Assembly (NCBI GenBank): GCA_016490735.1
Contig: JAEMWC010000624.1
Span: forward strand, 390,001 to 454,000
Length of the DNA: 64,000 nt
DNA from: Pachyseris speciosa
Lineage: Eukaryota; Cnidaria; Anthozoa; Scleractinia; Pachyseridae
Direction of reading: 5' to 3'
Part shown: in pieces, positions 14,683 through 50,650 of the stretch
Layout: every line of letters begins with the position of its first letter
How positions within the stretch are numbered: the stretch's first letter is position 1
Translations under genes and position numbers: made by a program
The notes under the pieces: generated by a model
Database searches by the model: none
Told to the model about the DNA's origin: nothing
What the model saw: the letters and a program-made list of their open reading frames with translations, nothing else

Positions 14683-14809
14683 CCCGCCACGATGTTTACA
14701 GTAAACGGGTGAGTTGAATTTGATCGCTCGGCGAAGCAGCGAAACGTTTAGGGCAACACTGTTAATCGTGTATACCAGTCTTCCGGTCTTCTAAATTTGC
14801 TGGAGAAGA

Positions 14810-17491: not shown

Positions 17492-18562
17492 AGCGCTGTG
17501 TCCACTAATTGCTCAAAGCGCTGTACAATGGTAAAACTATAAAATACAAACCTAATAACTATTATGATGAAATTAACTAAACTACTAATAACTATACATC
17601 ATAAGCAAATTTAAATAAATATGTCTTCAACTGCGTCTTAAACTGGTCAACAGTGATAACATTCCTGAGTTCAAGAGGCAATTGATTCCATAGCCTAGGA
17701 GCAACTACAGAAAAAGCTGTATAACCATACGTCTTTAGCCTGGATTTAGGCACAGCTAAAAGATTCTGAGAACTAGAACGAAGTAAAACGTGGGCTATTA
17801 TGTAAAAGTTCAGACAGGTAAGTTGGTGCCAAGCCATTAAGGCACTTGTACACTAAAAGCAATATTTTAAAATTTATACGATAGTTTAACGGTAGCCAGT
17901 GAAGTTTAAACATGATAGGAGTAATATGGTCAAAGCGCTTAGTTAACGTAACAATGCGTGCAGCAGTATTTTGTATTAATCTTAGCTTATTTAACAGGTG
18001 TTTGGGAAGTCCATATAACAAGGCGTTACAATTATCCAGTTTAGAGCTAATGAACGCGTGTACTAAAATTTCAGAGGTATCTTCTCTTAAGTACTTCCTA
18101 ATCTTGGCAATGTTCCTTAAGTGGTAGTGGCAAGAGACAGATTTTTTTATTATGTTCCGTTAAGTTAAGACAATCATCGATAGTAACCCCTAAATTCCGG
18201 GCAGAAGATTTGGGTTGAATCCACTCATCGCCCACTTGGATGAATTCCAGGGCGGGCCTGGAACGAAATTGTGAGGTTATGAGGACAAGTTCAGTTTTCT
18301 CCTGATTAAGTTTAAGTCCATTATTCACCATCCAACAGTCAAGATCAGTGACACAGCATTCAACACGACGCTTGGCCAGTGAGAGATCAAAGCTACAGTC
18401 AGTTTTAAAAGATAGATACAGTTGGGTATCACCAGCGTAGAGATGATACCGTAACTTGTGGAGCTTAATGATGTCGGCAATGGGTGATGTGTATAGGAGA
18501 TAGAGAAGAGGGCCCAGAACAGATCCCTGAGATATACCGCGTTCCAAAGAGCGCTGTGTTGA
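17445..18562 (-). mobile_element. CR1/L2-like LINE fragment nested in the L1-like LINE
   Basis: Minus-strand RT fragment starting at [20 protein letters not shown] and ending with a C-terminal FSVVAPRLWNQLPLELR stretch, then an ATT-repeat tail (17445-17490), the usual 3' end of this clade. The hexamer CTTTTA flanks it (17439-17444 and 18563-18568). Removing the insert joins the host frame EIRAF to TIAFSKKKAK. The active site reads YAGD rather than YADD, so this copy is dead. 5' truncated. Confidence 0.85.
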
Positions 18563-18564
18563 CT

Positions 18565-21388
18565 TTTACGATAGCATTTTCAAAGAAGAAAGCTAAACGT
18601 AAACGTGACGAAGAATCAACTCTTTTGTCGGAAATGATGAGATTACAGACCAAACTCCAGACATTATACAGCGATTCTCTTAAATCCGAAGTGGAGAGAA
18701 TAAAAACTAAGCTTTCAAAAATTACAGAGGACCAATTGTGCGCAGTAGAGCGCGCTGGTACGAGAATGGCGAGAGGAATAGCAAATATTTTTATAACTTA
18801 GAAAAATGTGACCAAAAAAAGAAACATATAACGTCCTTAGTAATCAACGATGGCCACAAAATTACAAACCCCAAGGACATCCTCGAGGAGGAAGAGCGCT
18901 TTTTCAAAGAAATTTATACGTCAAGAAATAACGATCCCAACTGCCCAATTTTCAACTATTTCTTCGAAACAGAAAATTCATTATCAGAAGAGATCGCGAA
19001 AACGTGCGAAGGTGATATGTCTATTGATGAGTGTGAGCGCGCGTTAAAGACTACGGAAAACAATAAGACTCCTGGCACGGATGGGCTCACCTGAATTTTA
19101 CCGCTACTTTTGGAACTTACTAGGCTCGTTTATGGTAAGCAGCTTTAATTACGCCTTTCAAAATTGAACTCTTTCTATCTTTCAACGCCAAGGGATTATT
19201 TCTTTAATATCGACAAAGAAAAAGAATACCGAATATGTAAAGAATTGGCGACCTGTATCATTACTGAATGTAGACTATAAAATAGCTATACGAAACTATT
19301 GCTCTGCGCTTGGAAAAGATCTTGCCACATTTAATTCATCCCTGCCAATCCGGGTATGTTAAGGGAAGGTTCATTGGGGAAAGCATTAGGCTAATATCAG
19401 ACACAATGCATTTCACTAAACAGAAGAATATCTCAGGGGTAGCTGTGTTTTTGGATTTCGAAAAGGCTTTCGACTCGATTGAGTGGGATTTCATTCACAA
19501 ATGCCTCGAAACGTTTAACTTCGGTCTGGACCTTTGTCAATGGATAAAAGTGTTCTATAAAGATATCTCTAGTTGTGTTTTGGATAACGGATACGCCTCA
19601 AAACACTTTTATTTAGAACGTGGAGTGCGTCAAGGTTGCCCACTTTCCGGCACCCTATTCGTTATTGCTATTGAGTTACTTGCGCACAGTATTAGACGTT
19701 CAAAAAAAAAATAAAAGGTATTACCATAGGTGAAAATAAAGAGGTCAAACTCTCGCAGTATGCATTTGACACAACTGTACTTCTTTCTGATGTCCAATCA
19801 GTGTCAAACTTATTCGATTTATTCTCACTTTTCGAAAGGTGCTCTGGCCTGAAAATAAATGGAACAAAATCTGAAATGCTATGGCTTGGCTCCATGTGCC
19901 ACAGGAAAGATGCACTCCTTGATCTCCAAATGAGCGGTGAGCCAGTTTATGCGCTTGGAGTGCATTTTCCATACGATCTAGAAGCGTCTGAAAAGAAAAT
20001 TTTTTTTGAAAAATTGGGATCGTTAAAGAAAACATTACATATATGGTCCCAAAGAGACCTTAATATATTTGGTAGGATAAATATAATTAAAACTTTAGCA
20101 CTTTCAAAACTCGTCTTTATCTGCAGCGTCATGGACACTCCTAAGGACTTCAGCAAAGAAGTAAATAAGATCACTTTCGATTTTACTTGGAATCACAAAC
20201 CTGCCAAAATAAAAAAGACTACCCTGTTCAAGCAAAAAACAGCTGGTGGCCTGGACATGAAGGACTTTTCTCTCTTTGATAAGGTGCTTAAGTTAAACTG
20301 GGTTAAACGGTGATGTTCTAATTCGGATGCTCCATGGCAGTACATACCAAAATTGCTCCTTGCCAGTGCTGGCGGAACTGAATTGTTTAAATGCAATTAT
20401 GATTATAATCTCCTTGGCCTAGACAACCATCTTCCGGCCTTCTACAAACAAATTGTTTTTTACTGGCAAAACATCGCAACAACCACGCCCAAAAATAAAA
20501 ATGAGGTTCTCTCACAGACAATCTGGAACAACCGATTTATAACTGTGAAAAGGAAAATGGTATACTTTCCTCATTGGTATCGTGCAGGAGTAAAACAAAA
20601 ATCAGACCTTTTTGACTCCTCTGAAGGCCGTTTCCGTTTAACTCTTTTTGCAATAAATTCAACCTAAAATGTAACTTTTTACAACATTATCGCATTCTTT
20701 CTTCTATTCCCCAAACTTGGAAGAAACTATTGCAAGAAGGTTCTGAAAACCCAGTTACGCCTTCCACCTCAACTGCTTCACTGACATGCAAGACAATATA
20801 TGGAATGCTGTTGAACCTTGAAGGTCTGCCTCCGCCCACTGCTGAGAAAAAAAACTTTTAGCGTGCGGCATCGAGATGAATGACTTAAATAACATTTACT
20901 TCTTACCTTTCAAAGCCAGAAAAGAAATTAAATTAACGATGTTCCAATATAAAATTATTCACCGAAGTTTACCAACGAAGAGCTTGTTGTACAAAATGAA
21001 GAAAGTTGCCTCGCCCTACAGCCCCTTTTGTCCTTCTGAGTGTCAGACCATGTGGCATTTGTTTATATATTGTACGCAGTCAACTTCATTTTGGAATAGG
21101 TTCCAGGAATGGTATTCAATCTCTAGTAACACGAAACTGCTTCTGTCAGAATTAGAAGTTATGTTCGGAATTACTCGCTGTCACACTAATTGTTTAGCCC
21201 TCAACCATCTCATTATTTTGGGTAAATATTTCTTATATGTCAACGCTTTAAATGCCATAACGCACCAATTTGGGGATTTCGTCTCACTTGTGCATGAAGA
21301 AATAAATTTAGAGAAATACCTGGCAGTCAGTCAGTCTAATAAGGAGAAAGAATTCAAGAACAAATGGAAATTTTTTTTGTCTTTATAA
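18565..21388 (+). pseudogene. LINE reverse transcriptase and C-terminal region
   Basis: Continues the host LINE after the nested insert. HPCQSGYVKGRFIGESIRL, VAVFLDFEKAFDSIEW (catalytic Asp motif) and GVRQGCPLSGTLF are clear RT blocks at 19310-19714. The second Asp block reads QYAFDTTVLL (YAFD for YADD) after a frameshift at about 19710. Further stops near 20312 and 20667 break the C-terminus. Confidence 0.8.
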
Positions 21389-21984: not shown

Positions 21985-22157
21985 GTTTGAAATGCTATAA
22001 TTTTAAGCGATAGGCTCAACCAAAGAAAATTAAAGTAGCATTTATCAATAGATATTCACTCCTTCGACGGGATTAAGACAGTGTCGAAGTACTTAGTGAA
22101 ACCGGTGCAACGATATGAAGAGAAACCTCACGAAATAAAAGCGAGAACAGATTGATA
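21985..22157. repeat. Segmental duplication copy A, part left of the CACTA element
   Basis: AGCGATAGGCTCAACCAAAG... matches 44345-44540 (AGCGATAGGCTCCACCAAAG...) at many positions. The match stops at the CACTA left terminus and resumes at 39236, showing that copy A was split by the transposon. Confidence 0.85.
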
Positions 22158-22445
22158 CACAGGACGAAATGACGTCTTTAAGTTTAATTATAGGTTCAGT
22201 AAAGTTGACTTAAAGAACACTTTTCATTGTCTTTAAGTACGCTGTAAACTTCTTAAACATCTCTTTACTGGGCCTTTAAGAAAATCTATTAAAGCAAGTA
22301 ATGAACAATTTAAGAGATCTTTAAGTTGCTTTCGAAATATCAAGGAAAGAATTCTTTAAGGGTCTTTAAGTTGTGATTAAAGATGCAGTAAATTACCTTT
22401 TAATGTACCTTTAAGTGAAAACTTAAAGACTTGAAAAGAAACTGT
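22158..22445. repeat. CACTA left TIR and subterminal CTTTAAG array
   Basis: The 16-bp TIR is followed by about nine CTTTAAG/CTTAAAG heptamers plus near variants within 280 bp. Subterminal repeats of this sort are the transposase binding sites in known CACTA elements; that role here is inferred. Confidence 0.8.
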
Positions 22446-23067
22446 GTGAACGTTGCTCTTTCATAGCGATTTACCGCGCAAACGCCAAATTTAGCTTGGA
22501 ACTCAATAATTATTGCATTGGAAGATGTTCGCGTCATCTTACTGCTTGTGTTAAGAGGTGCGAACTTGTGTTTGTCTTGGAAACACATACAGCAGGATCG
22601 ATCTTTGCTGTACAAGGGTCATCAGGTTCCTCTTCTTCTTTTTGGTGTTCCTTGTGGATTAATACATAAAATGACACACTAGCAAGCCAGCTCAAAAAAC
22701 ATACTTTATTGCATTATACATTACGATTATTTTCGCACATTTTAAAAAGGGAGCAACACTCTCTGAGATACTTATTTGACACTTAGACCATGAGAGTTGT
22801 CTCGTATGACTGATATAACTCCTTTAAACGCTCAACAATTTGTTAAAAATATGCAAAATGTATATGTTGAAAGTAATATATTAACTATCATCATACTATA
22901 ACTGCTACTGGAGAATTTTTAGCAGAACCCGCGAAATCCTATCTCAAGAATTAAATTCAACTACATCCTACCTGTTGGCTCTAAATGTCGAGGGTGGCGA
23001 ATGGTAAATGCGAGACTTAGCAAGACTAGCGTTTTTCTTTCGGCGAGCCCGCGACATTTTTGACTTC
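22446..23067. other. Non-coding stretch inside the CACTA element
   Basis: No credible exon recognised. A minus-strand AATAAA lies at about 22708-22713. Ends at the TTAAAC target of the foldback element. Confidence 0.3.
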
Positions 23068-23073
23068 TTAAAC

Positions 23074-26000
23074 TATGGAGTTCCATCCCCGCCAAAAATC
23101 AAAGTTGATCACAACATTCAACTTGACAGTTAAACCATTAACTTGGCAAACCTCAACATTATATTTCACTCTTCAACTTTGTACTTTGTATCACAAACAT
23201 TGAAACTTTCGACATCAACTTTCAGGCACTGTTTACACGGACGCGGTTTCATTTGTAACCGCATCGGTTTCGATGCGGTTACGCCTTTCGTTTACACGGT
23301 GCCGGTCGAGTTCGTTATCAGAACCGAGTCGTTTTGAAAACGCTTTCAAAAGTGGAGCGTTTTCAAAACGATACGGTTTCATTGGTCGTGTAAACGGCGA
23401 AACCGCATCGATTTAAAAACGGTTACTTATTTTGGTGCGAAATTGACTGGCTCGCGAAGGGTAATTTTGTGAACCTCGCACGGAGTGCAGCGCTTTTTTG
23501 CACAATCACAATTTAAGTTCGTTTTTTCAGCTTTCATATGTTTTACTCTCTTTAAACCGAGAGGCATATCGTAATAACAGGCAGAGATGTCTTGAAATGT
23601 TGACTTTTCCGTCGATACGCTCCAGAGTAACGAAGAGAAAGCAAAACAACGATTCTGGATTCGGCCTGGGAGAACTCAAGTTTGATGGGACAACTTTTTG
23701 GACGATGTTATGCTTCCAGAAGAATGCCTGAGAACGAGATCGCCATGACGTAAACGGTTGGATAGGTTCCGTGTAAACACTTCGAAACCGTGTCGTTTTT
23801 GTTGCGGTTTCGAGGTCATGAAACCGTGTCGATTGGAAACCGCGTCCGTGTAAACGATGCCTCAAAGTGACGGTTCAACATTCAACTTTATCCATCAACA
23901 TTCATGTTTACATATCAACAATGGTCTTGGCACATGGGCTGTCAACAAAAGATGATGTTTGAATCTCGAAGTCGAATGTTGAGTTACCAAAGGCGCTCCA
24001 ATCCCGCCAAAATTGAACTTCAGAATTCAACTTTCAAGTTGATAATTCAATATCCGTGTTTAACAATGAACATTGCTATTGCTGATGACACAAATATGCT
24101 AGTTCACCATAACGTAATGTTCCATCTCTCAAAGTTGGTTGTTTAGTTATCCGTACGTACCAATTCCGCCAAAAATCCCATTGAAGCGCTGTAGGGGAGG
24201 AGACGGATAATTTTGTAAGGCCTTAGCTATGAAGGTCCGTTCTGGTCAAAATTAAACACTTTTTTTTGTCGGATTATTCAATTATTTTTACTGGCTGTCT
24301 ATTTTATGTCACTGTCTAAATATATTTTTAAATTTTGGCTTGACTTTTTTCGTTACCTTCTGTGAATTTTTTGGGGGCTACCCCCTACAAATTATTTATT
24401 ATTTTACTGTACGAATTATTTTTGGCACCCTTTCCGAATATCTTTTTTCGCACTGTCCATGAACTATTTTTGGTTACCCTCCGCGAATTATTTTTTAGTA
24501 CTGTCGAATTAAGTTTTGGTTCGGTGATGCATTGCGTGGCTGTGACTTGTATGTCTAACGCGTCAATACTGGATCGAGTTCTTCCCGTCGTCATAAGAAC
24601 GTTAAATTGCACAAATAGCTCGAAATGCAATACAAGACATCTACCGAATAGCTCAAATAGTCCGCTTAAATGGGCCATCCTTCAGCTGTGCTAGAGGTGT
24701 CCCCTCCTCAAGTTCTACTGGAAATAAAACGCCCTCAAGTTCCAATCGTGCAGGAGGCAATTCACAGTTTGCGATGCGAGAGACCGCAACGCACTGACTG
24801 AATTGAGAAGGAGGTTCCCTACACTTTCAAGTTCAAATGATGCTGTAGCACTGGGTGTCTCGAAACCTCGGACCCTAAAATTAATATAAATTTACACAGT
24901 GTGATTGCTACAAGCCGTCCTGAGTTCGTCGATAATGTCGTAGCCAGAATCTGCGGAGGGAAACAAAAATAGCTCGTGGTAGTAATTGCCTGTACTGATC
25001 ACAGAAATAATGCTCAACATTCGTATTGATGTTTGGTTGTTTTATTAGTGTAAACCACATTTATCCACACTGTTTAGTTAGCGCAAGGTGCGTTGCGTGA
25101 CGGTTTCCCAATCTCCAGAAACCGGATATGCATTCTTTCAAACTCTCACTAAGAAGGCGTAAGTTATAAGTCAACATCAGCTGTCAATTTAATATGGTAA
25201 AACAAGTATCTGTTCGTAGATGTAATTTCCAAGGCACGAGTTCATTGTCTGTACCATCCCGTTTCTGTAACGTGACGCTATATATTTTTGTACAGATTGC
25301 GAAACCATCACACAACGCACCTCGCTTCAACTAAACTTAGCTCGAATCGCCAGTCTAAAACATTGTGGATAAATTTTGGTTTACACTTATAAAGCAACCA
25401 AAAATCGATACGAATCCTGAATATTATTTTTGTGATCAGTGCAGGTAATTACCTTCACGAGCTGTTTTTGTTTCCCCCTGCAGATTCTGGCTACAGCATT
25501 ATCGACGAACAGTAAACAAGACGGCTTCCAGCAATCACGCTGAGTAAATATTTATTAATTTTAGGGTCCGAGGTTTCGAGACACCCAGTCCTACAGCATC
25601 ATTTCAACTTGAAAGTGTAGGGAACCTCCTTCTCAATTCAGCCAGTCAGTGCGTTGCGGTCTCTCGCATCGCAAACTGTGAACGAGAAAGACTGGTCAGT
25701 GGATCACTACAGAACTGCCTCCTGCACGAGTGGAACTTGAGGGCGTTTCATTACTAGTAGAACTTGAGGAGGGGTCACCTCTAGCACAGCTGAAGGATGG
25801 CCCATTTGAGCGGACTGTTTGAGCTATTCGGTCGATTTCGAGCTATTTTTACAATTCCAATTCAACGTTCTTATGACGATGGGGAGAACTCGATCCAGTG
25901 TTGACGCGTTAGACATACAAGTCACAGCTACACAATGCATCACCGAACCAAAACTTAATTCGACAGTAAGAAAAATAATTCGCGGAGGGTAACCAAAAAT

Positions 26001-26776
26001 AGTTCATGGACAGTGCGAAAAAGGATATTCGGAAAGGGTGCCAAAAATAATTCGTACAGTGCAATAATAAATAATTTGTAGGGGGTAGCCCCCAAAAAAT
26101 TTCACGGAAGGTAACGAAAAAAAGTCACGACAAAATTTAAAAATATATTTAGACAGTGACATAAAATAGACAGCCAGTAAAAATAATTGAATAAGCCGAC
26201 AAGAAAAAATCTTGTTTAATTTTGACAAGAACGGACCTTCATAGCTAAGGTCTTACAAAATTACCCGTCTCCTCCCCTACAGCGCTTCAATGGGATTTTT
26301 GGCGGAATTGGTACGTACGGATAACTAAACAACCAACTTTGAGAGATCGAGCATTACGTTATGGTGAACTAGCATATTTGCGTCATCAGCAATAGCAATG
26401 TTCATTGTTAAACACGGGTATTGATACGTAACATTTGATGATGAATTATCAACTTGAAAGTTGAATTCTGAAGTTCAATTTTGGCGGGATTGGAGCGCCT
26501 TTGGTAACTCAACATTCGACTTCGAGATTCAAACGTCATCTTTTGCTGACAGCCCATGTGCCAAGACCATTGTTGATATATAACTTGAATGTTGATGGAT
26601 AAAGTTGAATGTTGAACCGTCACTTTGAAAGTTGATGTCGAAAGTTTCAATGTTTGTGATACAAAGTACAAAGTTGAAGAGTGGAATATTATGTTGAGGT
26701 TTGCCAAGTTAATGGTTAAACTGTCAAGTTGAATGTTGTGATCAACTTTGATTTTTGGCGGGGATGGAACTCCATA
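23074..26776. mobile_element. Giant foldback element with ~1.4-kb inverted arms
   Basis: The ends read TATGGAGTTCCATCCCCGCC at 23074 and its complement ending at 26776, with the 6-bp duplication TTAAAC on both sides (23068-23073 and 26777-26782). The arms (about 23074-25125 and 25300-26776) are highly similar reverse complements, around a ~175-bp loop. The left arm is longer only because of a nested 637-bp MITE. No transposase-like ORF; frames in the arms mirror each other. A 6-bp duplication with very long TIRs recalls Polintons, but the AG-starting terminus and all Polinton genes are absent, so I leave the class open. Confidence 0.85.
23225..23861. mobile_element. Harbinger-type MITE nested in the foldback left arm
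   Basis: Termini GGCACTGTTTACACGGACGC (23225) and the complement of GGCATCGTTTACACGGACGC (ending 23861) are flanked by TCA on both sides (23222-23224 and 23862-23864). The right foldback arm lacks it (AACTTTCAAAGTGACGG at about 26610-26626), giving an exact empty site. TIRs of 26 bp or more with a 3-bp duplication fit PIF/Harbinger. No transposase encoded. Confidence 0.85.
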
Positions 26777-26782
26777 TTAAAC

Positions 26783-28135
26783 TGCGGGACCATGTTATAT
26801 GCGAGCGCGAGACAATTGAAATTCGAGTATGTCAGCTAGTACAGAAGTATTTCAGTTATAAGCTCTTGTAAGAGACATTAAAACTGTCAACAGTCAATAA
26901 ACGCCATTATTTTCCTGGCCGTGACGTACAATTATAATTTTGGTCGCTTCCCTCTGATCTTTTGATTGACACCCTGCCAATTGCAACTCCAGTTGTCTGG
27001 AGCTCGTCAAAAAAGCGGCCGTGTTGGAACTGAGTGGAAGCGTTCGTGTCGATTTATGAGTAAACCATGGAAGTCGTGGAGGAAACTGGGATGCCCAAAA
27101 ATCCCTCTTCCCGTCGCAAGTGAAAGTATGAATCACGTAAGTACTCTGTGAATTTTTACATATTCATTAATACCCCGGTAATTAATTCGCTATTAAGTGT
27201 ATCAGCAAAACTTTAATCCCTGTCTCAACCTGAATCACGTAAACAGCCACGCCACTTTGAGAAAAAAAATCGAGACTGCCAGACGCACGTAAACATACGA
27301 TACTGCGAGACACGTGAAATTCGGCTAAAATTATGCGAGACCCATCGTATGGGAAGGACCATTCGCCACTCATAATTCACATATTTTGTAAATGAAATAA
27401 TACACAGAATACACAAAGGACGGTTATTGTCATTCCTTCTCACGCAACGATAGTGAAGGTACGACAGTAAACACATGTTAAGTTCTCACTTAATGCTTTG
27501 AAACTGGAGCTTTGAGATTTGCTCTTCATTTTAAAGGATATCACAATTATAAATATTGCCATGGAAGTTTTCAGCATTAAAGTAATTGATAGCAAAGTGC
27601 TCCAGAAGTGAAGTACAGTAGATCTGTCATTTCTTAAATTTGAAGGAACTTAATTATTTTGCTGTTTGTCCCTCCATGTCTTATTTTAGTGCTTGCATTT
27701 GAGTATCAGGTTTTGATTTTGCACATATGTTGTCTAAATGTCACAACAGTATTCAAGAAGAATTGTTGAAAACAAATCATTCCTGCTTCACTTTAGCTGG
27801 TTCACTTTTTTTGGAGAAGGTATACCAAATAGATTTGAATAATTTATGGCTTTCAAAGAGAAAAACCAAGCAATTAATTGCCTGTCATCTAGTAAGCTTT
27901 ATGGCTTATTTTCCACAAAGGTGAACTTTGTAGAAAATAAAGTAAGTAAACTAGTCAATAAAGGGAGAGACAGACTATACATAAAAGCAATTATTCTTAC
28001 ACTTAAGTGAAGGTGAGTAGTAGTCAATGTTTTAAGTACCAATGTGCTATGCAGTTTAGTGAATATCAACCACTATTCACCCTCACTTTGGGATTATTCA
28101 TCTGATATCATTAGTAATTAATAATAGTTACTTAG
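26783..28135. other. CACTA interior without a firm gene
   Basis: A + strand segment around 27056-27138 has ATGs in good context and ends in a donor-like CACGTAAGT, so it could be a first exon. The best-context frame (27068, MEVVEETGMPKNPSSRRK) ends in a stop 18 codons on, and no partner exon was found. The rest is AT-rich without recognised features. Confidence 0.3.
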
Positions 28136-31100
28136 CTAGTCTGAAGTATTTTCACTTGCCCATGCTGGGCAGTCATCAGGCTGTTGACGAGTGGACAACA
28201 ACTCACAACGCAGTCTTTGGATAGAGCGGTCCCTGCTGCGCTTGCTCTGCTGGCCTGCATAAAATTTATCCAGGGCCTTCTTTCGTTTTGTGAGTTTCCT
28301 GCTTTCCCAAGTCAGCTCTCTGACAGAGTAAACAGGTTTGTCAGCTTCATCAACATCTGTATCCTCTGAACTCATGAAGTCCTCAGTTAGAACTTCAGCC
28401 ATCTGTGCCTTTTTCCCCCTGTCCCATCCAATTTTATCCAAAGCAAGTGTCCTTCGTGTTATTTTCTGTACCAACAAATGACAAAAAAAAAAAGATAGTC
28501 AAAAAGTGTTGATTTTTTTAGAGGGAGTGCCCCAGAATTGGAGGAATATTCCTAAGTAGCAGGTAAGTAAACTTGGTGCAATATTGATTTCAAAAGTACA
28601 AACTGAAGCTGTTTATGTTGAGTATGTGTTATGAAGCCAGCACTACTTCAAAGTTAAATGAAAGCTCTTGGCCCAATGCAACTGGGAATATTCCTAATCT
28701 AATGATGTCTGCCTTAAATGAAATGCATGTACATTACCATGATGATAATAACAATAATCTAACAGAAAAATGCTAGATATATTTGTAAAGCAGAGACTTC
28801 AAACTAATTGATTGTATTTTTTTACTGGTACCCACACATCTGGTAGAGATAGATGAGGAGGAGTTAGTTTTTTTTCCCTTAGGAAATACCAGCCAAGGTT
28901 CAAATACTTTGTGGCCTCTTTATAGCAGAATTAAGGCTGATCTGGAGACAGTTTTCATTCCAGTAGTGCTTCATGATGGAATGATATGGGTAATCAAAAC
29001 CTCACCTCTCTTTTTCTACCCTGCCTTCGACATATCCTCTTGTGTTCCTCATAACTACCACTTTTCTTTTTGTGGTCTGTTTCATAGGTGGACAGGAAGT
29101 AGCGTCTAAATGATGCTAATTAGAAAAAAAGAAATAGAACTTATGAACAGGCCATGAAAAAAAGCCTAAAAACTAATATATTAGCTCACTGAATTGTAAT
29201 ACATTTAATTATACTTCATTTAGACAAGCTGCTCCCATCAGGTTAGTATTCCCACATCTGTGGCATGCCACATGTATGCAACCAAGTTCACTCCCCCCAC
29301 CCCCCACCACTCTCTCCCACCATTTAGACTGTGGAATTGGACCAAATTAAAGAAAAATTAAGCACTCATGAATTCTAGTGTTGCACTGTAAAGGTTCATT
29401 CAACAAAATGCAATATGCTGAGTTTTAAATTGCTGTTACCTTCTATCTCAGCATTAGACCACTGGCACTTTTCAGGGCCACCAACATAGTGGAACAGCTC
29501 TTCTCTGACTTTTCCATAAATTTGACAGTTATTAGCTGAATCCACACTAAAATGAGTAAAAACAAAAGTGCCCTTATTGACATCTCATGGCACAAGACAA
29601 TCAATTAATGCACTGATTCCATTATGTAAGCATTAAACATACATAATAATTTCACAAACTTCAAACTGTAGTGCCAGTAAGACAAAAATGTTGTCTCAAC
29701 GCATTATATACTGCTAAAATCCATATTGCCATTACCAGGTAGTCAGAAAGGTGAGGCATCAGACACATTTACATGTATGTAAACTAATGTTTTTTAAAAG
29801 TGTTGTACTATTCTTTACCACGTACCTTTCATCAAGATAAAATCCATGGAATTCATCAGACTGTTTAAGTGTCTTGTACACCTTTCGTAGTGTACGCTAT
29901 GAAAAAATACAATTATAGTTTCACTTGAGAAGATGATATGTGTATACAGTGGTACCAGGCGTTAACAGCACATTACAAGTTAGTAGCAAATAGAATCTTA
30001 AGGAATGGTGTAGGGTGAGTGGAGCCCAAAGAAAGCATAGCTTGTAATAATGTGGACCCCACCTAGTGGTACACAAATAATAAAGGCTTAGCAGATTTTA
30101 AACAAAACAAAACAGTGACAACAAAGCATGTTACTCTTATGCTATCATGATTGGTTTTAATCAGACCCAACAATCCCATTTGATATAATTATGTTATGGG
30201 TTACGCCAGCATTATGGCACTGGTAGCAGTTTATCCACTTGGGTGAAGAACATGAAACAAAGTTTCTCAGTCCATTTGCATTTCCATGTCAATGCTATAC
30301 CTGCTCACTCTCTTGTAAGTGGTATACAAAAAAACAATAGCTAGCAATAAAGGGAAATAGCAAAGACATCTCCATGCATGGTTTTTGTCTGACCAAGGGA
30401 ATAGCATTTGACTGATGTAAAGCAAATGAATATTTTCGGTGTCTTCACAGCTTTCTTGAATGAATTACAAAGAAGTGAGTTCAGTGGCAGGATGGTTGCA
30501 GCTTATCATAGAGAGAGGACTGCAAATTGTAACTGGGATGGTGAGAACAATATCTCATCCCCTGAGTATATATATGCAAGTTATGAAACATTTTTCAACA
30601 TAGCAGTTTACCATAGCAACACTTTAAACCATTACAACAAACCTCAGTTAACTAAGAGCTTTAAACAACAATGACTCCAAAATGATCTCAGTGATCCCCA
30701 TTGTTTATTGTTAGGAATTAGAATTAGCATAATAAATTAAAACGTTTTGAAAATTTAAAAAAATTCTAAGACTGGATTCAGAGCCACCTTAAATTTGCAA
30801 AATGTTTGATCTTGACATGCTAATCACTTTTCAATGATAAAAAATGGGGGTCACCGAGCTTGTTTCACATTTTCACATAAAGCTAAAATTAGGGGTGTTT
30901 CTAACAGGCTATAATGCTTTGTGGAAAAGTGTTCTTAAATAGCCTACCAATGATTATAATAATAATGATTGGCTATTTATTTGATATTATTATAAAGGTA
31001 ACAACTTATGAAGTTTTGTAGTGATCATCCATCAAAATGCAAGAGCTGGGAACTGCTAGAAACCGGTGATAGTCACCTTAATTAGCGTTCGTTTAAGGCC

Positions 31101-31472
31101 AACTATGGAGGTAAGCTTAATCTAATGGTTGAATTTTCTGCAAATGATATTCAATTTTTAGTCAAGCATATTTGGGTCGCAGTATTTGTCAAATTAACAG
31201 AAAAAGAAGCATATACTCACTCGACATGCTGGTGACACCTGAACTTTGTTTTTCTTTCTGCTGGCGGATAATCGACGGGCCTGAGAACTACGGTCATCCC
31301 GTCGTTCTTTTAACTTTTCCAGCTCCTCTAAGACGGTATGCATCACCCTATTATGATCCTCATCCCTGGCCTTGAGTTCCTCCCTCAATTTTTGATTTTC
31401 TAAAATAACCTCTCGGTTAGATTTAACGGCCTCCTCGAGAAGAATTGTGTGCTGGTCACTGAAATCCGCCAT
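28136..31472 (-). CDS. Five-exon cargo gene, 289-aa charged protein of unknown function
   Basis: Exons on the minus strand: 31472-31221 (ATG, MADFSDQHTILLEEAV, coiled coil, ends PACR), 29896-29826 (RTLRKVYKTLKQSDEF), 29546-29440 (SVDSANNCQIYGKVREEL), 29115-29006 (ASFRRYFLSTYETDHKK ... RRQGRKRE) and 28465-28136 (KITRRTLALDKIGWDRGKK ... ENTSD stop). Every junction has AG/GT and phases 0, 2, 1, 0 agree; total 870 nt. The N-terminal ~85 residues are heptad-like and charged; the C-terminus has an acidic block (VLTEDFMSSEDTDVDEAD) then a basic one. The final exon resembles, from memory, hypothetical proteins of other cnidarians. Role unknown; a nucleic-acid or chromatin role is only a guess. An in-frame ATG six codons upstream (31490) is possible. 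It shares a short upstream gap with the kinase gene. Confidence 0.7.
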
Positions 31473-31707
31473 CGTCCTTAAACTGAACACTTTGTGTTTG
31501 GCGCGCGCGCGGAATTAATTTATGATAATCAATACTATCCTATGACATCATTAGAACTGCCGCTGATACGTCGTAACTGAGCACACTGTAGACTACATCA
31601 GCGGTCTCGATAATTTTGGAGGGAAGGAAAATGCGCGAAAAATAAGGTTTATTTTGGTCTTGGTTTCGGTAAGCGAGTTTTTACTCAGGTCATTTGCGTT
31701 TTTTGAC
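31473..31707. promoter_or_regulatory. Divergent promoter region between the two cargo genes
   Basis: 235 bp separate the start codons of the minus-strand 289-aa gene and the plus-strand kinase gene. It includes a GCGCGCGCG run near 31500-31511 and no clear TATA box. The compact head-to-head layout suggests shared control; inferred from spacing only. Confidence 0.5.
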
Positions 31708-33506
31708 ATGCCAAAGAGAAGCAGAGAGAACACTAAGGAAGAGATTAAGCGAATGCGTTCGAAACGGAAGAAGAGAAAACGCAAGCAACGTCTTATGGAC
31801 CGAAGAAAAGAGGTTTACAAAGGGCTTCTTGCCCATGTGGAAGAAGAAAGAGCAGGTATGGAGAAGCAGCGGAAAGTGTACGCGTGCCTCTCTCGGAAGT
31901 ACTATGATCGGTTAAACTCCCTTCATAAAAGAGAACAGAACATGGTCATTAAAGGGTCAATACCGGCGCGTGGTCCTAGCCAGCGTGAGGTAAGTAGTCC
32001 CCGAAACACAATAAGTTGTATCTTCAGATATATCTGGTACATCAAGATAATAACTTAAGTTATTACCTTCCGCATAGCCCCATGAATTAATTATACATAT
32101 GTCGATCTCATACTAACCCTCTTCCGCAGGAACGACCGTGAACCAGATCTAGTACTTTTTCACTATCCACATCTGGGCAGTGCTGGGATATGGTTTTCTA
32201 AAGAGGGGTACGTGTGTATGGTGTGTGTGGGTAGGGGGGGGGGGGGGCTGTCAGGGGGGAGGGTAGGGGAAAGAGGATTATATAAACTGTCATCCTCTGG
32301 AGCCTGGTATCATGTACTGATAGCCTCTTGATTTTACTACACAATTAAATTATTTTGTTTATCATCCATCCTCCTATAATTCCTTTGATTACAGGAGCAA
32401 ATAAATATATATACGAGGCATTTTCAATATTTCCCTGGGGAAGGGATTAGCAATACTGGAATATTGGTAGCTTTCCTATTTGTCCAGGGCTAATGTATGG
32501 AGGGGTGGGGTTGGGTGAGAGTGAAGGAGGGTTGAGGTCTAATTCATGACCCAGATATCTAACTCTAGACACTTTGACTGAAATCTCCACTTAAGCATGT
32601 TGGGCTCTCCCTTACCACAAGGTTATACCTTAGGAACACTGGAAAAACTTTGCCATTTCATTACAGGTGCTCACAAGAGACCTGTGCGAGGTACGCATAA
32701 CAGAAATTGATCCTGCTCTCTTGGAAAGTCCTAAAAATACCCCTGCAGGAGTAAACAACTTTCTTGGAGCAGGTGTGTTTGGCAGCTGTAAAAAAATGTT
32801 TTACAGAGGAATGCCTGTTGCTGTGAAAAGTTTTTACTCTGCATCAACAGAAGATGTGAAAAGGGAAGCCCAGATAATGATGACTCTGCAGCACCAAAAC
32901 ATTCCATGCCTATTGGGAATTTCAACATCATCATCTCCTAAACTATTAGTACTCAATTATTATGCTGTCAATGATAAACCATTTACAATGCACACTGCTC
33001 TTCACAGTAATTCACTTCACCTCTGTCACTCAGAGTGGTGTAGCATTGCTTTGCAGCTGGCCCAAGCCATTTCATATGTGCACAGCAAAGGATTTATTCA
33101 TCAAGACATTAAATCAGATAATGTACTTGTTTCTTATTGGAATAATGAATATCATGCAATCCTAATTGACTTTGGCAAGTGTATCAGGTCAGTGTCTGGT
33201 TCTGTAAAGCACTTAACATTTGAGGAGCAACAAGAGTACCGTGAGAAGCATGGTCATGTAGCTCCAGAAATAATAGCTGGGCAAAGCCCACCAACTGTTG
33301 CAAGTGATATTTTCTCTTTTGGGAGATTAGTTGGTTTTATTGCCAGAAAGCTCAGTAATGGTGCCCTTAAGATTGTGGGTGAAAAATGCACTCACTCTGA
33401 TCCTAAATCAAGACCAACGTTTTGTGTTGCAATTCAGCAACTTATTGTTATTAAGGACATGTTACAGCTACAAATAGCCCATGGGAGTACTGAGTTGCTT
33501 TCCTGA
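31708..33506 (+). CDS. Coiled-coil protein kinase, non-RD type, CACTA cargo
   Basis: Two exons, 31708-31989 (94 codons, ends CAGCGTGAG|GTAAG) and 32667-33506 (after TTACAG), both phase 0; 373 residues. Residues 1-94 are very basic and helical (MPKRSRENTKEEIKRMRSKR). The kinase domain starts near residue 125: glycine loop LGAGVFGS (127-134), VAVK Lys148, Glu161 in helix C, catalytic loop HQDIKSDN (Asp241, Asn246), DFG at 262-264, an APE motif in HVAPEIIAG, SDIFSFGRL and a C-lobe SRPTF. All residues needed for phosphotransfer are present, so it should be active. The HRD Arg is Gln, making it a non-RD kinase less dependent on activation-loop phosphorylation. Substrate unknown; likely Ser/Thr or dual specificity from KSDN. 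The gene lies between the CACTA termini beside the transposase. Confidence 0.85.
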
Positions 33507-33575
33507 TGGCACATCAGTTGTTAGCAAGTGGCGAGATGGCACATCTTGTCAGTCAGTACTTTTGTGGTGCTACTG
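33477..33575. repeat. Duplicated kinase 3' end, copy 1
   Basis: Covers the last codons and stop of the kinase gene plus 3' flank. A near-identical ~100-bp copy (AGTACTGAGTTGCTTTCCTG...) lies at 34195-34297 in the same orientation. Confidence 0.85.
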
Positions 33576-33984
33576 GGTTGTGAATCCTAGAGCAAATGAT
33601 TAGCATTTAGAGAAAAACAGTGCTATCTTTGAGATATTTAGTGGCCTTTTTGAGATACATGTACCAAAGATATCAATGGTGTCTAATGAAATAGTTTATT
33701 AGTTTAAGGAAGCTGATTGGACAGCTAAAAAAATATACAAATAGCTCTATGGAAGTCACTGAATACAGAGGTTTACATGTTGTTTTATTATTTTTTATAG
33801 GCAAAAATGTCTCATTTATGATCTGTCATAGGGTAAGAATAATGGAGATGAGTAGTGTTTTAGAAAAAAATGCAAAAACCTTTAACCCCAAAGCTAATCC
33901 TTGCAACATGATTTTGCAGCTGGCATGAAGCTGCTTGAGAAACACGCATGCTGTTGTGATTAATTTGTTTCTTGATAAAAGTTA

Positions 33985-34148
33985 CTGCGGAACCCCGCTC
34001 TACAGACACCCATCTAATACGGACACCCACTTATAAAGGACAGTTTTTTATCCCAACAACTAAAAAGGGTCGTATATTTTCTCTCAAAGTACCTGGCAGT
34101 TTAATATGGACACCCAGTTAATGTGGACACTTTGGCATGGTTCCACTG
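33985..34148. mobile_element. Pogo/Tigger-like MITE
   Basis: Left end TA-CTGCGGAACCCC and right end GGTTCCACTG-TA are imperfect inverted repeats flanked by TA (33983-33984 and 34149-34150). The internal ACGGACACCC-type repeats are typical of short pogo-like MITEs. Located between the two copies of the kinase 3' duplication. Confidence 0.6.
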
Positions 34149-34194
34149 TACATTCTGCTAAAAATGAAACTACATTTGACCAGATTATAAGAAT

Positions 34195-34297
34195 GGCCCA
34201 TGAGAGTACTGAGTTGCTTTCCTGATGGCACATCAGTTGTTAGCAAGTGGTGAGATGGCACATCTCATCAGTCAGTACTTCTGCATGTAGTGCTACT
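34195..34297. repeat. Duplicated kinase 3' end, copy 2
   Basis: Direct copy of 33477-33575, about 718 bp downstream and past the MITE at 33985. Confidence 0.85.
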
Positions 34298-34688
34298 CAG
34301 TCAAAAAATATTACAATTACAATCCAATGCAATTGGTGAGTAGTGTTCATCTGACTAAAATATAATCTTTTTTATTGTATTAGTTGTCTCCTGTGGTCAT
34401 CAGGCCAAGCAATAATCCAATGATCATTATGACATCCAAATCAATTTTGCTATGTCAGGAAAGCTGATTGGGATTGTATTGTACGAAATTAAAGATGACA
34501 AAGCAAAAAAAAAAAAAAAAAAGAAGACATATGGTGCTTGGGATTTAAGGAGTGCTATGGAACCTTGGCAGTTAAGCTCTTGAAAATGTAGTATGATAGC
34601 TTGATCTGGTTGGTTATAGAAAACATAAAGGGATTATTTTAGTAGGCGGATGCCTGCCACTTGTGTTTGTTCAACACATGCAACTGGT

Positions 34689-34689
<1 letters not shown>

Positions 34690-34729
<40 letters not shown>

Positions 34730-34742
34730 TAATAATAATAAT
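34690..34742. repeat. (AAT)n microsatellite
   Basis: AAT/TAA run just beyond the 3' end of the CACTA transposase gene. Confidence 0.95.
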
Positions 34743-34786
34743 ACAGGTTGGTCATGAACACTGTTCACAAGGAGTAATTAGATGAA

Positions 34787-37700
34787 TTAAATTTGTGAGT
34801 GAATGCTATCCACCGCTACAGTTATCAATTTTTTCTCTCCATCTACTTCCATTTCTGCTGCAGCGTATCTACCATAAATCCTTTGTACGGGCAGAAAACG
34901 TGAAGGCCCATTAGGTACATGGTCATTTAGCTTCCAGGTTTTAGTGGGGTTACCGAAGCGGTCAGGGTTTTCATCAGCCTTGTGCCACAAAACGCGGGCA
35001 AATACATGCTGAACGAACATGCCATTCAACTTGATGGAATGCGAAAAATAGCATAGAACACAACCTGCCCAAAAGGCTAGGCCAGTGAGATTTAAATCCC
35101 CTTCTTTCGCAGTCCAAGATGCATAAATTCGCGAAGAACGAAGAGAGCGGCACTCCATCTTTGAACTAAAACGCTGGGAGCCAATCATCACCGTAGAGTA
35201 GACCTTGATGGTATCTGACATATCCATCTTGGTAATTGGCTGGTCTGGGTACAAACTTTTGTACACAATAAATAACGCGTCAAGGTCAACACTCTCCATA
35301 ACCTGTAGCCTATACACTGATGGCAAAGTGACGTCCGTGAGGACAGACCAGTCGATCCCTGTAACAGGAGTGACAGTAGACAGTTTGCGCGTGCCGTTTG
35401 CGCTTGACGCTGAAGAGTCCACGACAAACTCCTCACTTGCAAACGGATTACGAATTAAATCCTTAAACTTATCCTGATAGTCAACTGGTAGCTGGACACT
35501 ATTAAGATACCGTGACAGGCTCAACTTTCTCATTAGCTGTAATTCAAGCGACCTCTTGTTTGTAAAAACACTTCCCATGATGCCGTTATACCTTTCAAAA
35601 CTGAAGCACCAAAAGCTACGCACTGGCCCATGATCAATGATGACGTCTTTCAAGTGGCAATGCAGGTGCATATTGGGGGTGATGGCCTTTTTACCATATA
35701 ATTTTTCGAATTCCTTGCAAAATTTAAGTAAGAGCAAGTCAGCTCTTTGCACATCCAAACTTGTTAGGGTTGTCTGGCACAAATATTTGCAGGCCAGTAC
35801 AAATGTTTGCCAGCACTGAATGTGTTTATCTGAAATCACACCTTTCAGAGCAAACATAGAATATATTAAAGTCCAATTTTTCCACTGTTCTGCCGTGTAA
35901 GATCCATAGTTGGATGAAATTTTTTTGGGAAGGCGGCCGAGGTCGGACGGGACGTCCATTTGCTCGATTCTCTCCTCGAGTAGTTTCATTCCTTTTTTTC
36001 CAATTACACCTTGCTTATCCCAAAGTTTGAAAACATATTTTGCGGTCCCTAAAAAGAGATTGTGCATAGGGTCTACGGTGCAAAATCTTATAATGTCAAA
36101 ATACTCTAGGTCTAGCAAGACGCTCCAGTAATTTATACCATATTCTTTGCTTAGTTTATTCTTCTGAGTTAAAGTCTTACTCTTTTCAATTTTTTTGGCA
36201 TTTGACTTGTGGTCCTCGTTTGAACGTTCCTGCCAGGTTTCCCTGTCAAAGCCAGAGTAATCCTTTTTCTCGCCAAATCCACCAGGGAAATATTTTAAGC
36301 ACCGCGAGCAGCCGCGATATGCACTGTGACCTTTAAAACCGCACAATTTGCGAGCAGCTGGAATATCAGCTGATACACACAACAGCGCAGCTCGAAAGGT
36401 TAGTGAAATAGAACTTAAGCATGACTTCAAACGGACACCTTTCCACAAGGCTTTCATTTCGTCCACAGCTGGCTTTAAAAATTCATTCAACGATTTTGGT
36501 TCCTTATCCATAGAAGGAACAATTCCTACAACAATAACATTTTCCCACTTGAAACGCAGGTGTCTTGGCAAGTTTAAAAGGACGAGGTAAAGGACCCCCA
36601 CAGAATAGTCTTTACGGTGTTTTATGGGCTGAAAAAAGTCAAAGTTCAACATTAACCCATAATTTCTAGGAGCACTCAAAAATTCCTTTCCGTTATAACT
36701 TTGGAAGTCTTTCCAAATCTGGCCATTGTAAACGTCTGACAATGTCTCCTCATTTTGCTGCTGATTCCGCCACTCCTCACAACTACTCGGGATCCCGTCT
36801 TGTTGGAGAAGCCTTTCCATTTCATCTATGATACCGTTATAACAGTAGTAATGGATAGGGTAGAATTGTTCTTTGCCATCGTTTAACTGGACTCGCCTCA
36901 CTAACTGTGCATTACAAGGTCGCTTTTTCCCTCTTAACGTGACCAAGTTGGAGCATCTCTTTGCCACTGTCCTATTATTTTCTAGTCTCAGGCATGAATC
37001 GTAGTGATACAGCTTTGTGCATTTTGGGCAGACAACATATTTTGTAAATGAATCTCTATCAAGGTTTATAAACTGGCGAAGGAGGTATATAGATGAAGGC
37101 AAAAGTGTAATCACTTCAGCTAGAAATTCGTTTTTTACTGACATTCCCAGGACTTCAAGAAATTTAAACACAAACTGCAGCAACCACACCATACCGTTGT
37201 CACTTATTTTACAGGATGCTTGCCATAACAAAAGAAAATAAACAAACCAAAACAGCATTGCATTCACTTGCTGAAGTTTACTTTTTCTTTGCTCAGGTTG
37301 TGGTAAAGGTGTCGCAACGGGAACATCCTTGGTAAATTCCTGCATATGAACAGTATCCCACTGCTCGGCTTCATCACTGTCACTATCATCGCTAGCATCA
37401 AACTCATTACTTTCGTCATCTGCGTCTGAGTCACTTAACTCACTGACAGACACGTCTGAAGGACCGTCCTCATCGTTAATCTGCGCAAACAAGATTGAAG
37501 ATGATATCTTGCTATGTCGAAAGAGTACAATTTTGTCTACATTAGTTTAATATGGCAAAATATGAAACCCTAGACTGTTTATGATTTCATTACAAATCGT
37601 GACTTTCGTATCGATTGACCTTCATTTCGTGACAAATCGATGTTATTTTGAAACTTTGCTCTGCCTCTGTATCAGTGCTGGAGCTCAATTTAAGACATCC

Positions 37701-38158
37701 AAAAAGAGCGTCACGTCATGCCTTAACCTATTTACTATATTTGTTGAAGGATTTGCGACTTTTGATCGCCAGCAATAACAATTTACCTTGTCATTTTCCA
37801 ACCTTGGGAAATCCTCTTCAGATAAGGATTGCTCAAGTCTGCCCTCAGTTGAGCCGGTGGCCTTATCGAATTCGTCTAAATAAAGAATTTAAATCACCTA
37901 ATTAGTAGAGTTACAGTTCGACTTCGTTCATTCTTGAAAAATCATTTAACAATTTCAAAACTGACCATTTACACTGGACGTTGCTGTTGTAGTGGCTTGT
38001 GTATTCGGAGTCGTATCGGCACTCTCACTCTCTGAACTGCTATCTGAAGTCGGCTCTCGTTTTCTTTTAAGAGACTGGTGTCGGCGAAATGTGGACCTTG
38101 ATACGTTCTCATTGCAATGAGAACAGTAAATGTAATCACTGCGGGTGATGTGCTTCAT
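34787..38158 (-). CDS. EnSpm/CACTA transposase (TNP2-like), full length
   Basis: Three exons on the minus strand: 38158-37966 (ATG, phase 1 end at AATG|GTCAG), 37875-37787 (DEFDKATGSTEG... ends NDK|GTAAA, phase 0) and 37480-34787 (INDEDGPSDVS... stop). Total 2976 nt, 991 residues, no internal stop. The N-terminus has a CSHC...RRH zinc-finger-like motif followed by Ser/acidic tracts, as in animal EnSpm transposases. Around residues 245-290 is a CPKC...C...C cluster. LCGFKGHSAYRGCSRC and, near residue 585, VDPMHNLFLGTAK are signatures I associate with TNP2. It would bind the subterminal CTTTAAG arrays and cut at the CACAGG termini. The open frame suggests a recently active, possibly still competent, element. 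Confidence 0.88.
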
Positions 38159-38964
38159 CGCGATAAATGTTTGCTGTACCGTTATACCTTGATGGTGATA
38201 GCCGAACCTGTTGAACTAACACTATTTTTGATGGGGCTGGTACTTATATGTTACAAGATGCTAACTACGTGGATTCCAAAGTACGCATTGACGTACAAAC
38301 GCATTTTCGTAATCGGGTGCGACATCAGGGGAAAGGAATTGCGTAACTATGGCCTGAATCATGCTTGATTTCGAGAACTTATGATCATCTGACATCATAA
38401 ACTACGTAGTAGAAGGTCTTGCACGTATGCTTGCGGGTAAAAATACCCAGCTGGGTAATATGTCAAAAATCTAACATGCTTGTGATGAAATTCGCAGTGG
38501 TTCGTTTTTTAGTGATCGCGGGTTCGAGATCGCGACTGTATATGCATTTTTGCTCGCGGCTAGTTAAGGAAACAGTAACAGCCCCCGAGTCAATTAGTGC
38601 ACAGTAGACATTAATGGTGTATAAAATCCTTACAAGGCACGTCCTCCCTGTATTTTCTCCATTGCAACGAATCACCGACCTTTTAGTTGATAAATAGTTT
38701 TACACCGCTAACTGTGCAAGGTCCAGTGTACAGGCTAGAGATCCGGAGTTATTAATACCACTGACACAGGCGCCATTGCTGGGTCAGATCTACATAGTCG
38801 GGTCAGATCTAAATAGTCACTTTAGCCGGAAGGATTTAACTCAGTTACCGGTATACGATCTTAGTGTCGTCCTATAAATAATGTTATTCCTCATATGACA
38901 CGTATAATGGTACGTCATTTGGAGGATTTGCGCGGCACTACCTATTTTCGGTAAACGCTGTTAT
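38159..38964. other. Upstream region of the CACTA transposase
   Basis: No exon recognised. It contains a short tandem repeat, two copies of GGGTCAGATCTA(C/A)ATAGTC at about 38782-38818. The transposase promoter should lie at its left edge. Confidence 0.35.
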
Positions 38965-39235
38965 TTCTTTAAGGTACTTTAAGTGATAAATTAAAGTTCG
39001 CTTAAGGTTTCAACGACATTTAAGTCACCTTTCCGGGACAACTTAAAGGTACGTTCCTCTAACGTGATGAAAATCAAATTAAAGAGAACTTAAACGCCTA
39101 TAAATGGCCCTTAAAGAATCACGTTCCCTTTAAGACATTTAATAGCCTTTAAGTGTAAACTTAAATATTCTTGATATCTTTAAGTTACCTATAATTTATC
39201 CTTAAAGATTAGTAAATCTGTCATTTCGTCCTGTG
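38965..39235. repeat. CACTA right subterminal array and TIR
   Basis: About ten CTTTAAG/CTTAAAG heptamers and near variants (for example at 39045, 39108, 39130, 39148, 39180, 39201) precede the 16-bp TIR. The arrangement mirrors the left end. Confidence 0.8.
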
Positions 39236-39271
39236 ATATCTCGACCGGATGACATTAACATTATCACTCAC

Positions 39272-43753: not shown

Positions 43754-44175
43754 TTATTTCGGTGACGGTGACGGTGACGGTAAATAGTGACAGTAGCAGT
43801 GGCAGTGGTAGTGGCAGTGGTAGTGGCAGTGGCAGTAACAGTGGCAGTGGCAGTGGCAGTGGCAGTGGCAGTGGCAGTGGCAGTGGCAGTGGCAGTGGCA
43901 GTGGCAGTGGCAGTGGCAGTGGCAGTGGCAGTGACAGTGACAGTGGCAGTGGCAGTGGCAGTGGTAGTGGCAGTGGCAGTGGCAGTGGCAGTGGCAGTGA
44001 CATTCACATGGGCAGTGGCAATGGCAATGGCAGTGGCAGTGGCATTGACAGTGACAGCGAGTGGCAGTGGCAGTGGCAGTGGCAGTGGCAGTGGCAGTGG
44101 CAGTGGCAGTGGCAGTGGCAGTGGCAGTGGCAGTGGCAGTGACAGTGACAATAGCAATAGCAATAGCAATAGCAA
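43754..44175. repeat. (GGCAGT)n hexanucleotide array, ~400 bp
   Basis: Near-pure GGCAGT repeats with occasional GACAGT and GGTAGT variants and an interruption around 44001-44060. It opens long Ser-Gly, Ala-Val, Gln-Trp and reverse-strand frames, none credible as protein. It lies between copies A and B of the segmental duplication. Confidence 0.95.
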
Positions 44176-49752: not shown

Positions 49753-50467
49753 CTAAATGCGGTTTGCATAAACAATAGCCTTTAAATGATTTCTCTTCTG
49801 CTGGGATAGTCTGTCATTTTGTCCAGCAGCATTATTGTTATTACCACAATCATTGTCATTATCCTCATTGTCAAGCATGTAACCCTCATCAAAGTCATCA
49901 TGGACAAGACAGACATTATGTAGAACACATGCACCAATGATGAGGAGGACTATCAGCTTTTGATTGAGGTGGTCAAGATGCTGTAGCTTCCTCCATCTCC
50001 CCTTGAGAAGCCTGATTGATCTCTCCACAGTCTGTCTATTAGAAGACAGGACTGTATTGAAGAAGATTTCTTCTGCAGTTAGATGGCCATTGTCTCTATA
50101 TGGTGTCATAAGCCAGGTCAGAAGTGGATATCCACCATCGCCAAGCAAATGTGTATTAGCTGGAAACTTGTTTGCAGCCGTGTTGTAGACAGTAGAATTG
50201 CGTAAGACCCTAGAATCATGTACAGACCCTGGCCATCCGGCCAAAACATCGGTGAAAACCATGTTTTCATCACAAATAACTTGCACATTTATTGAATGGA
50301 ATTTTTTACGATTAATGTATGCATCTGGCTCCTCCATTGGGGCTCTAATGCTAACATGTGTGCCATCTATAAGGCCAACCACACCAGGAAATCCTCCTTC
50401 TTCAAAAGCAGCCTTGATGACATGCATTCTATGATCTGCAAATTCAAGCAAATATATAATGCAATTC

Positions 50468-50520
<53 letters not shown>

Positions 50521-50619: not shown

Positions 50620-50650
<31 letters not shown>

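Follow-up and report, generated by a model that had tools for sequence, protein, structure and literature searches.

A complete CACTA-type transposon in the coral Pachyseris speciosa and the protein kinase gene that it carries

Does a protein kinase gene found between the ends of a DNA transposon belong to the transposon, or is it a host gene that happens to be enclosed? The question is raised by a stretch of 64,000 nucleotides from the coral Pachyseris speciosa (NCBI GenBank assembly GCA_016490735.1, contig JAEMWC010000624.1, positions 390,001 to 454,000 of the forward strand), which we call the window and whose own positions are used throughout. An initial annotation, made from the sequence alone, had described positions 22158-39235 as a 17-kb CACTA transposon with perfect 16-bp terminal inverted repeats (TIRs) starting in CAC, an ATA duplication, matching subterminal arrays and three multi-exon genes with intact frames, and had proposed that two of these genes, for a kinase and a 289-amino acid (aa) protein, travel with the element as accessory genes. 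The interval is a complete CACTA-type (En/Spm) element: ends, duplication and arrays are as described, and the predicted frames of the transposase, the kinase and the 289-aa protein are all open in the window copy. The length needs qualification, since the 17 kb include an unrelated transposon of about 3.7 kb nested inside, leaving a core of about 13.4 kb. We consider it fairly probable that this CACTA element is autonomous, or was so until recently, and has three genes of its own, among them the divergent pair of kinase and 289-aa gene (ACC). The parts are as follows.

22158-22173, plus strand: left TIR, exact 16 bp, CACAGGACGAAATGAC; outside it the target site duplication (TSD) ATA, 22155-22157
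22177-22427, no strand: left subterminal array, 11 TTTAAG/CTTAAA hexamers within the first 300 bp
23074-26776, no strand: nested unrelated TIR transposon, TATGGAGTTCCATC ends, TTAAAC duplicated
23225-23861, no strand: second-level insertion of 637 bp inside the nested transposon, GGCACTGTTTACACGG-type ends, TCA duplicated
28136-31472, minus strand: 289-aa gene (ACC), five exons (31472-31221, 29896-29826, 29546-29440, 29115-29006, 28465-28136)
31473-31707, no strand: spacer of 235 bp between the divergent ACC and kinase start codons
31708-33506, plus strand: protein kinase gene (KIN), 373 aa, exons 31708-31989 and 32667-33506 (kinase domain)
34192-34297, plus strand: imperfect (90%) 106-bp repeat of the kinase 3' end (about 33473-33574), downstream of the gene
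34787-38158, minus strand: transposase gene (TP), 991 aa, exons 38158-37966, 37875-37787 and 37480-34787; Transposase_21/tnp2
38968-39206, no strand: right subterminal array, 11 TTTAAG/CTTAAA hexamers within the last 300 bp
39220-39235, minus strand: right TIR, exact CACAGGACGAAATGAC, inverted; outside it the TSD ATA, 39236-39238

Read from the left end, the nested transposon is followed by the 289-aa gene pointing leftward, the spacer, the kinase pointing rightward and the transposase, which starts near the right end and reads leftward. The TIRs begin with CAC, as is characteristic of CACTA/En-Spm elements. Against the 11 hexamers in each terminal 300 bp, 2000 first-order Markov shuffles per end averaged about 1 and never exceeded 7 and 6, respectively, and all 17 occurrences of CTTTAAG/CTTAAAG in the element lie within 300 bp of an end.

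Whether the enclosed genes travel with these ends can be read from other copies, a check that the initial annotation had itself proposed. The assembly searched comprises 984 Mb in 2368 contigs. The exact 16-mer occurs 29 times in it, against 0 for a reversed-pattern control; with one mismatch allowed there are 53 matches against 16, which supply the partner ends for the copies C29 and C43. Counting only loci with at least one exact end (22 other one-mismatch matches are left out) gives 17 loci, of which 14 are two-ended and three one-ended (C125, C202 and C572); two of the 14 are one copy inside another, both on C800. The kinase is present at 16 of the 17, including every two-ended locus, and no kinase match was found in the stretches of C125 that were read. 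The transposase is likewise present at 16 loci and the 289-aa gene, at 80% identity or more, at 15. End-to-end reading of ten elements, that of the window among them, gave matches to the transposase, the kinase and the 289-aa gene in each; over the common part, the other nine share 97.6-99.4% identity with the window. The 3-bp duplications match in 11 of the 12 pairs examined, which exclude C29 and C43, and in nine of the ten end-to-end copies, the exception in both cases being C112 (tac/ata). On C800, the outer copy has CTG on both sides, and the inner copy is flanked by ACA and sits in a part that the window holds unoccupied:

26535-26581, minus strand: unoccupied equivalent of the C800 insertion site; its two flanks overlap by exactly the 3-bp duplication

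Given these copies, their 3-bp duplications and the empty site, it is the whole segment between the CAC...GTG ends that has inserted, and it has done so repeatedly. The same evidence bears on the suspicion that coincidental TIRs around host genes, or an assembly artefact, have been mistaken for a transposon: the assembly is a draft in many contigs and the C356 copy holds 487 N, but 17 loci, 14 of them two-ended, with matching duplications in nearly all pairs and an empty site make this explanation scarcely credible. The nested transposon has its own history, being missing from three of the ten copies read (C112, C561 and C2192), with empty sites seen in C2192 and C561; the 637-bp insertion is missing from C1019.

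What the three genes encode was judged from predicted models, with splice sites picked by eye. The transposase matches PF02992 at 60 bits (cut-off 28.6). Its first exon has a CxxC...H..H zinc-finger-like motif, and candidate motifs occur in the order NFDFF, SADIP, CSRC, HLHCH, SFER, both sets picked by eye and the latter unaligned; a published motif scheme has D, D and E, with C(2)C and H(3-4)H between the second D and E (PMC12730594). The kinase domain matches PF07714 and PF00069 at 100 and 99 bits, and the solved proteins closest to it in sequence are a tyrosine-protein kinase (7t6f), CTR1, IRAK4, B-raf and RIPK1. In the alignment to CTR1, GxGxxG, VAVK, HQDIKSDN, DFG and APE are present, so that at sequence level it has the catalytic Lys, HxD, DFG and APE of an active kinase, with HRD reading HQD. 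The Lys after HxD we take to mark the Ser/Thr type. The first kinase exon is very basic and, by eye, coiled-coil-like, and the basic N-terminus suggests a nuclear location. The best reading of these features is that of a putative nuclear Ser/Thr kinase and stable accessory gene of a CACTA lineage. The 106-bp repeat of its 3' end may be a relic of the joining of the kinase module. The 289-aa protein has no Pfam family at cut-off, and at E 10 neither ACC residues 84-289 nor the 919-aa transposase frame matched a PDB chain. The C-terminal part of the 289-aa protein may, to the eye, resemble vertebrate C14orf93, and a BEN-like fold is an idea only. The 235-bp spacer between ACC and the kinase is a probable shared promoter, to judge from the arrangement of the two start codons.

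The matched kinase-domain exon has no stop at 12 of the 16 kinase loci. Among the ten copies, the frame is undisturbed in seven for the kinase (C112 being counted despite a 6-base in-frame gap), in six for the 289-aa gene and in one, the window, for the transposase. C202, which is not one of these ten, combines an open transposase frame of 919 aa with a kinase that contains a stop. The transposase is broken more often because it is longer, the indels per base being about equal in the three genes (0.0007-0.0008 in each, against 0.0018 in non-coding sequence). Substitutions were counted with gaps, N and unaligned bases excluded and with the nested 3.7 kb left out of the rates. When each of the ten copies is compared with the majority base, non-CpG differences number 8/10785 in kinase exons (P 4e-9 against non-coding core), 17/8122 in the 289-aa gene (P 0.012), 61/27561 in the transposase (P 5e-5) and 300/78904 in the non-coding core. 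With C112 and C561 set apart as older, a division made only after the divergences were seen, and with CpG and other sites pooled, the eight younger copies give 0/8946 in kinase exons, 7/6951 in the 289-aa gene, 50/23569 in the transposase and 141/65973 in non-coding sequence. Against the latter, the transposase does not differ (P = 1) and the 289-aa gene barely does (P 0.048); the kinase exons also have fewer changes than their own intron (10/5402, P 6e-5).

Older divergence points the same way. Between the window and the older copy C210, kinase nonsynonymous sites differ at 44/811 and synonymous sites at 24/224 (P 0.009), a nonsynonymous to synonymous rate ratio (dN/dS) of about 0.5, with 62/655 in the kinase intron and 18/219 in the spacer; C210 is itself decayed, and therefore the working lineage was probably more constrained. 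Other comparisons are not significant alone: synonymous 4/243, nonsynonymous 8/876 and intron 30/673 for C43, and synonymous and nonsynonymous 4/173 and 5/613 for C572, 0/151 and 4/536 for C29, and 2/242 and 7/868 for C112. The kinase thus shows signs of constraint.

A kinase that is unchanged in the eight younger copies, beside a transposase that drifts there at the non-coding rate, is also what would be expected if each copy's kinase mattered but its transposase did not, as when the kinase, with or without ACC, gives its carriers an advantage or an addiction, for example as a killer/antidote pair, and so aids spread. The common 235-bp spacer of the two genes fits such host-directed cargo. 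Stops or frameshifts in four of the 16 kinases argue against it, as do kinase relatives that have no listed 289-aa relative nearby, and the reverse: relatives of each gene occur without the other, so there is no fixed pair. We regard this explanation as unlikely.

How old, then, is the association of these genes with CACTA ends? Deeper relatives in the same genome were taken, for the transposase, from the best 50 of 498 candidates scored, a lower bound, and for the kinase from 139 of 417. Transposases 38-55% identical to that of the window occur at many loci, at least 51 matches being listed. An ACC relative lies 7-12 kb from a divergent transposase at seven loci (C95, C218, C73, C309, C179, C19 and C683), with only a transposase exon found at C19 in the interval read. 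At C95, C73 and C309 the first exons of ACC and transposase face apart, the start codons, chosen by eye, being 267, 252 and 335 bp apart, with no kinase match between the two genes. The C95 element could be delimited: it is 13302 bp long, has CACAGCATGAAATT ends and an ATA duplication, and uses a subterminal word of its own, CGTAAAG. What was read of it, all but about 2.5 kb inside the transposase frame, contains no kinase match. Kinases 53-55% identical to that of the window occur 3.0-6.1 kb downstream of a 38-39% identical transposase, on the same strand, at seven of the seven loci listed in that band (C78, C920, C1191, C1323, C822, C4 and C698), where no 289-aa relative is among the matches listed. 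At C1240, a 38-39% identical kinase lies 9 kb from a 44% transposase, so that besides the family of the window there are at least two independent kinase-near families (C78-type and C1240). On C669 and C543 the ACC-like match and the transposase are 71 and 34 kb apart, and we did not score these as linkage; a kinase fragment on C177 (E 0.075 and 0.014) was discarded as probable chance, and C669 (4.5 kb) and C415 (2.5 kb) yielded no kinase at E 0.1.

One genome thus holds three layouts: transposase with ACC, transposase with kinase, and all three. In the window family the divergent slot beside ACC, filled by the transposase in C95, C73 and C309, is taken by the kinase, and the transposase has the opposite orientation. 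Transposase and 289-aa gene look like a two-gene backbone, and the kinase seemingly is a second, long-standing module; these arrangements would reflect either loss in some families or exchange between families. Because the three layouts are natural ones in a single genome, the roles of the genes should be separable by comparison.

The remaining kinase matches, 26-39% identical, are presumably host genes, and by inspection no listed transposase is found within 15 kb of any of them. Setting aside window-family copies, the decayed relatives C210 and C267, the transposase-adjacent loci, C25, C2289 and C7, no close host parent of the kinase appears among the 139 of 417 candidates scored, presumed host kinases reaching at most 39%; in this assembly the near-identical parent at a TIR-free host locus that marks Pack-type elements was not found. 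The proposal of the initial annotation that the two genes are accessory genes travelling with the element is supported, in that other copies in the genome carry them and no close host parent was seen among the candidates scored; its further suggestion, that they act on transposition or host regulation, stays a conjecture. That one element captured host genes by chance and then amplified them, as a Pack-CACTA-like passenger, would suit the youth of the window-family copies and the fact that in C95, C73 and C309 no kinase separates ACC from the transposase. Such capture is nevertheless very unlikely, since the genes are full-length and spliced rather than fragments, the kinase shows signs of constraint without a close parent among the candidates scored, and kinase and transposase are neighbours at 53-55% and 38-39% identity as well.

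Among known systems, the likeness to CACTA/En-Spm elements of plants, such as maize En/Spm and soybean Tgmt*, lies in the CAC ends, the 3-bp duplication, the subterminal arrays and the tnp2 transposase. The 20.5-kb Tgmt* is described with an ATA duplication, subterminal repeat arrays, a tnp2 transposase and a second protein for which binding to the arrays is expected (PMC2613891). The coral backbone of transposase and 289-aa gene is comparable to the plant tnpA/tnpD functions; here, however, a distinct divergent gene, which matches no Pfam family, would supply the second function, and the element has a complete kinase gene in addition. SmTRC1 of Schistosoma shares the Transposase_21 domain and the CACTA superfamily, but has 2-bp duplications (in 7 of 14 copies), and the word 'kinase' occurs 0 times in the main text describing it (PMC1636069). 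The enlarged En/Spm elements of Chondrus crispus are similarly large, 16-20 kb, with extra genes (4-5 open reading frames (ORFs)) whose products are unstated in that source (PMC6431247). The closest parallel in gene set, though not in descent, is TBE of the ciliate Oxytricha, which has an ORF with a kinase domain (PMC4724952); its transposase is of the Tc1/mariner type, whereas that of the window is Transposase_21. In titles and abstract openings of a mostly open literature, with Repbase outside, no CACTA element with a protein kinase gene was found, which is weak evidence of absence.

Fungal EnSpm elements resemble the coral element in their CAC..GTG ends, 3-bp TSD and carriage of an enzyme gene. 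The enzyme is a TET/JBP dioxygenase, found in several transposon lineages and thought to help transposons escape methylation-based silencing, and so serves DNA demethylation, not phosphorylation (PMC12730594). The word 'kinase' occurs twice in that paper. By analogy, the coral kinase might work against silencing by the host instead of on the transposase, with chromatin or small-RNA factors as possible substrates. The basic N-terminal stretch, with the nucleus that it suggests, is in keeping with this, whereas the two kinase exons contain no chromatin domain at the Pfam cut-off; we think such a role rather unlikely, if conceivable.

We therefore return to an element with three genes of its own, in which the kinase probably regulates transposition. 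In the mechanism that we propose, judging from its family the element's own transposase would have performed the insertions, the 289-aa protein would be an end-binding partner in the role of plant TNPA, and the kinase would have as its substrate either one of these two proteins or a chromatin or repair factor of the host, such phosphorylation setting the timing or frequency of movement. Beyond this single family, we suggest tentatively, with somewhat less than even confidence, that an animal-type CACTA lineage carries a nuclear kinase as a module shuffled among families with the two-gene backbone, and that transposition, or its cellular licence, is under phosphorylation control by the element. 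Transposase activity is usually tuned by host kinases, and an element encoding its own would be a direct, testable case of a selfish element controlling phosphorylation for itself. The case rests on the kinase having fewer changes than the transposase and on kinase relatives beside 38-39% identical transposases. New here are the genome-wide linkage, the empty site, the signs of constraint on the kinase and the older families with the same modules.

Several observations weigh against this reading. With regard to constraint, six of the ten kinase-intron differences stem from one copy, C2192. Kinase synonymous sites are also unchanged in the young copies, and the ten-copy singletons (stops counted) number 7 nonsynonymous to 2 synonymous in the kinase (11 to 7 in the 289-aa gene, 45 to 15 in the transposase), so that selection on the kinase protein is not separable within the family. 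Gene conversion could contribute to the invariance. The C561 copy (G000:C561), with 0 substitutions in transposase and kinase, is a mosaic, having old variants left of the window-equivalent 32635-38289 and three substitutions inside that stretch; because the near-empty stretch also crosses non-coding parts, it looks recombinant or converted, and freezing of the kinase by an exon-only assembly correction was rejected. With regard to the genes themselves, Gln replaces the HRD arginine, four of the 16 kinases are broken, as noted, the first transposase exon of C356 is unreadable and C112 is without the end of the 289-aa gene. With regard to linkage, the C95 element, with ends and duplication but no kinase, indicates that not every relative needs one. 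The 53-55% identity band was defined after the list was seen, and the linkage there is one of proximity. Since several of them are nearly identical and count as one family, the seven are probably copies of one to three families rather than seven events. Finally, the kinase relatives on C25, C2289 (51%), C7 (41%) and C267 (75%) have no transposase among the best 50 of 498.

Other mobile sequences in the window were recognised by eye. On the minus strand are a DIRS-like retroelement (5333-8533), which has a reverse transcriptase and an ORF resembling tyrosine recombinases, and ORFs of a Gypsy-like long terminal repeat retroelement with gag-pol and integrase (10821-14790). Pieces of a LINE-like (long interspersed nuclear element) endonuclease and reverse transcriptase, mostly on the plus strand, lie at 16551-21388, near the left end of the CACTA element. 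To its right, about 60 copies of the hexamer AGTGGC form a tandem repeat (43786-44147), and a Myb/SANT-like ORF stands beside PIF/Harbinger-like transposase ORFs (48178-51898), perhaps another two-gene DNA transposon.

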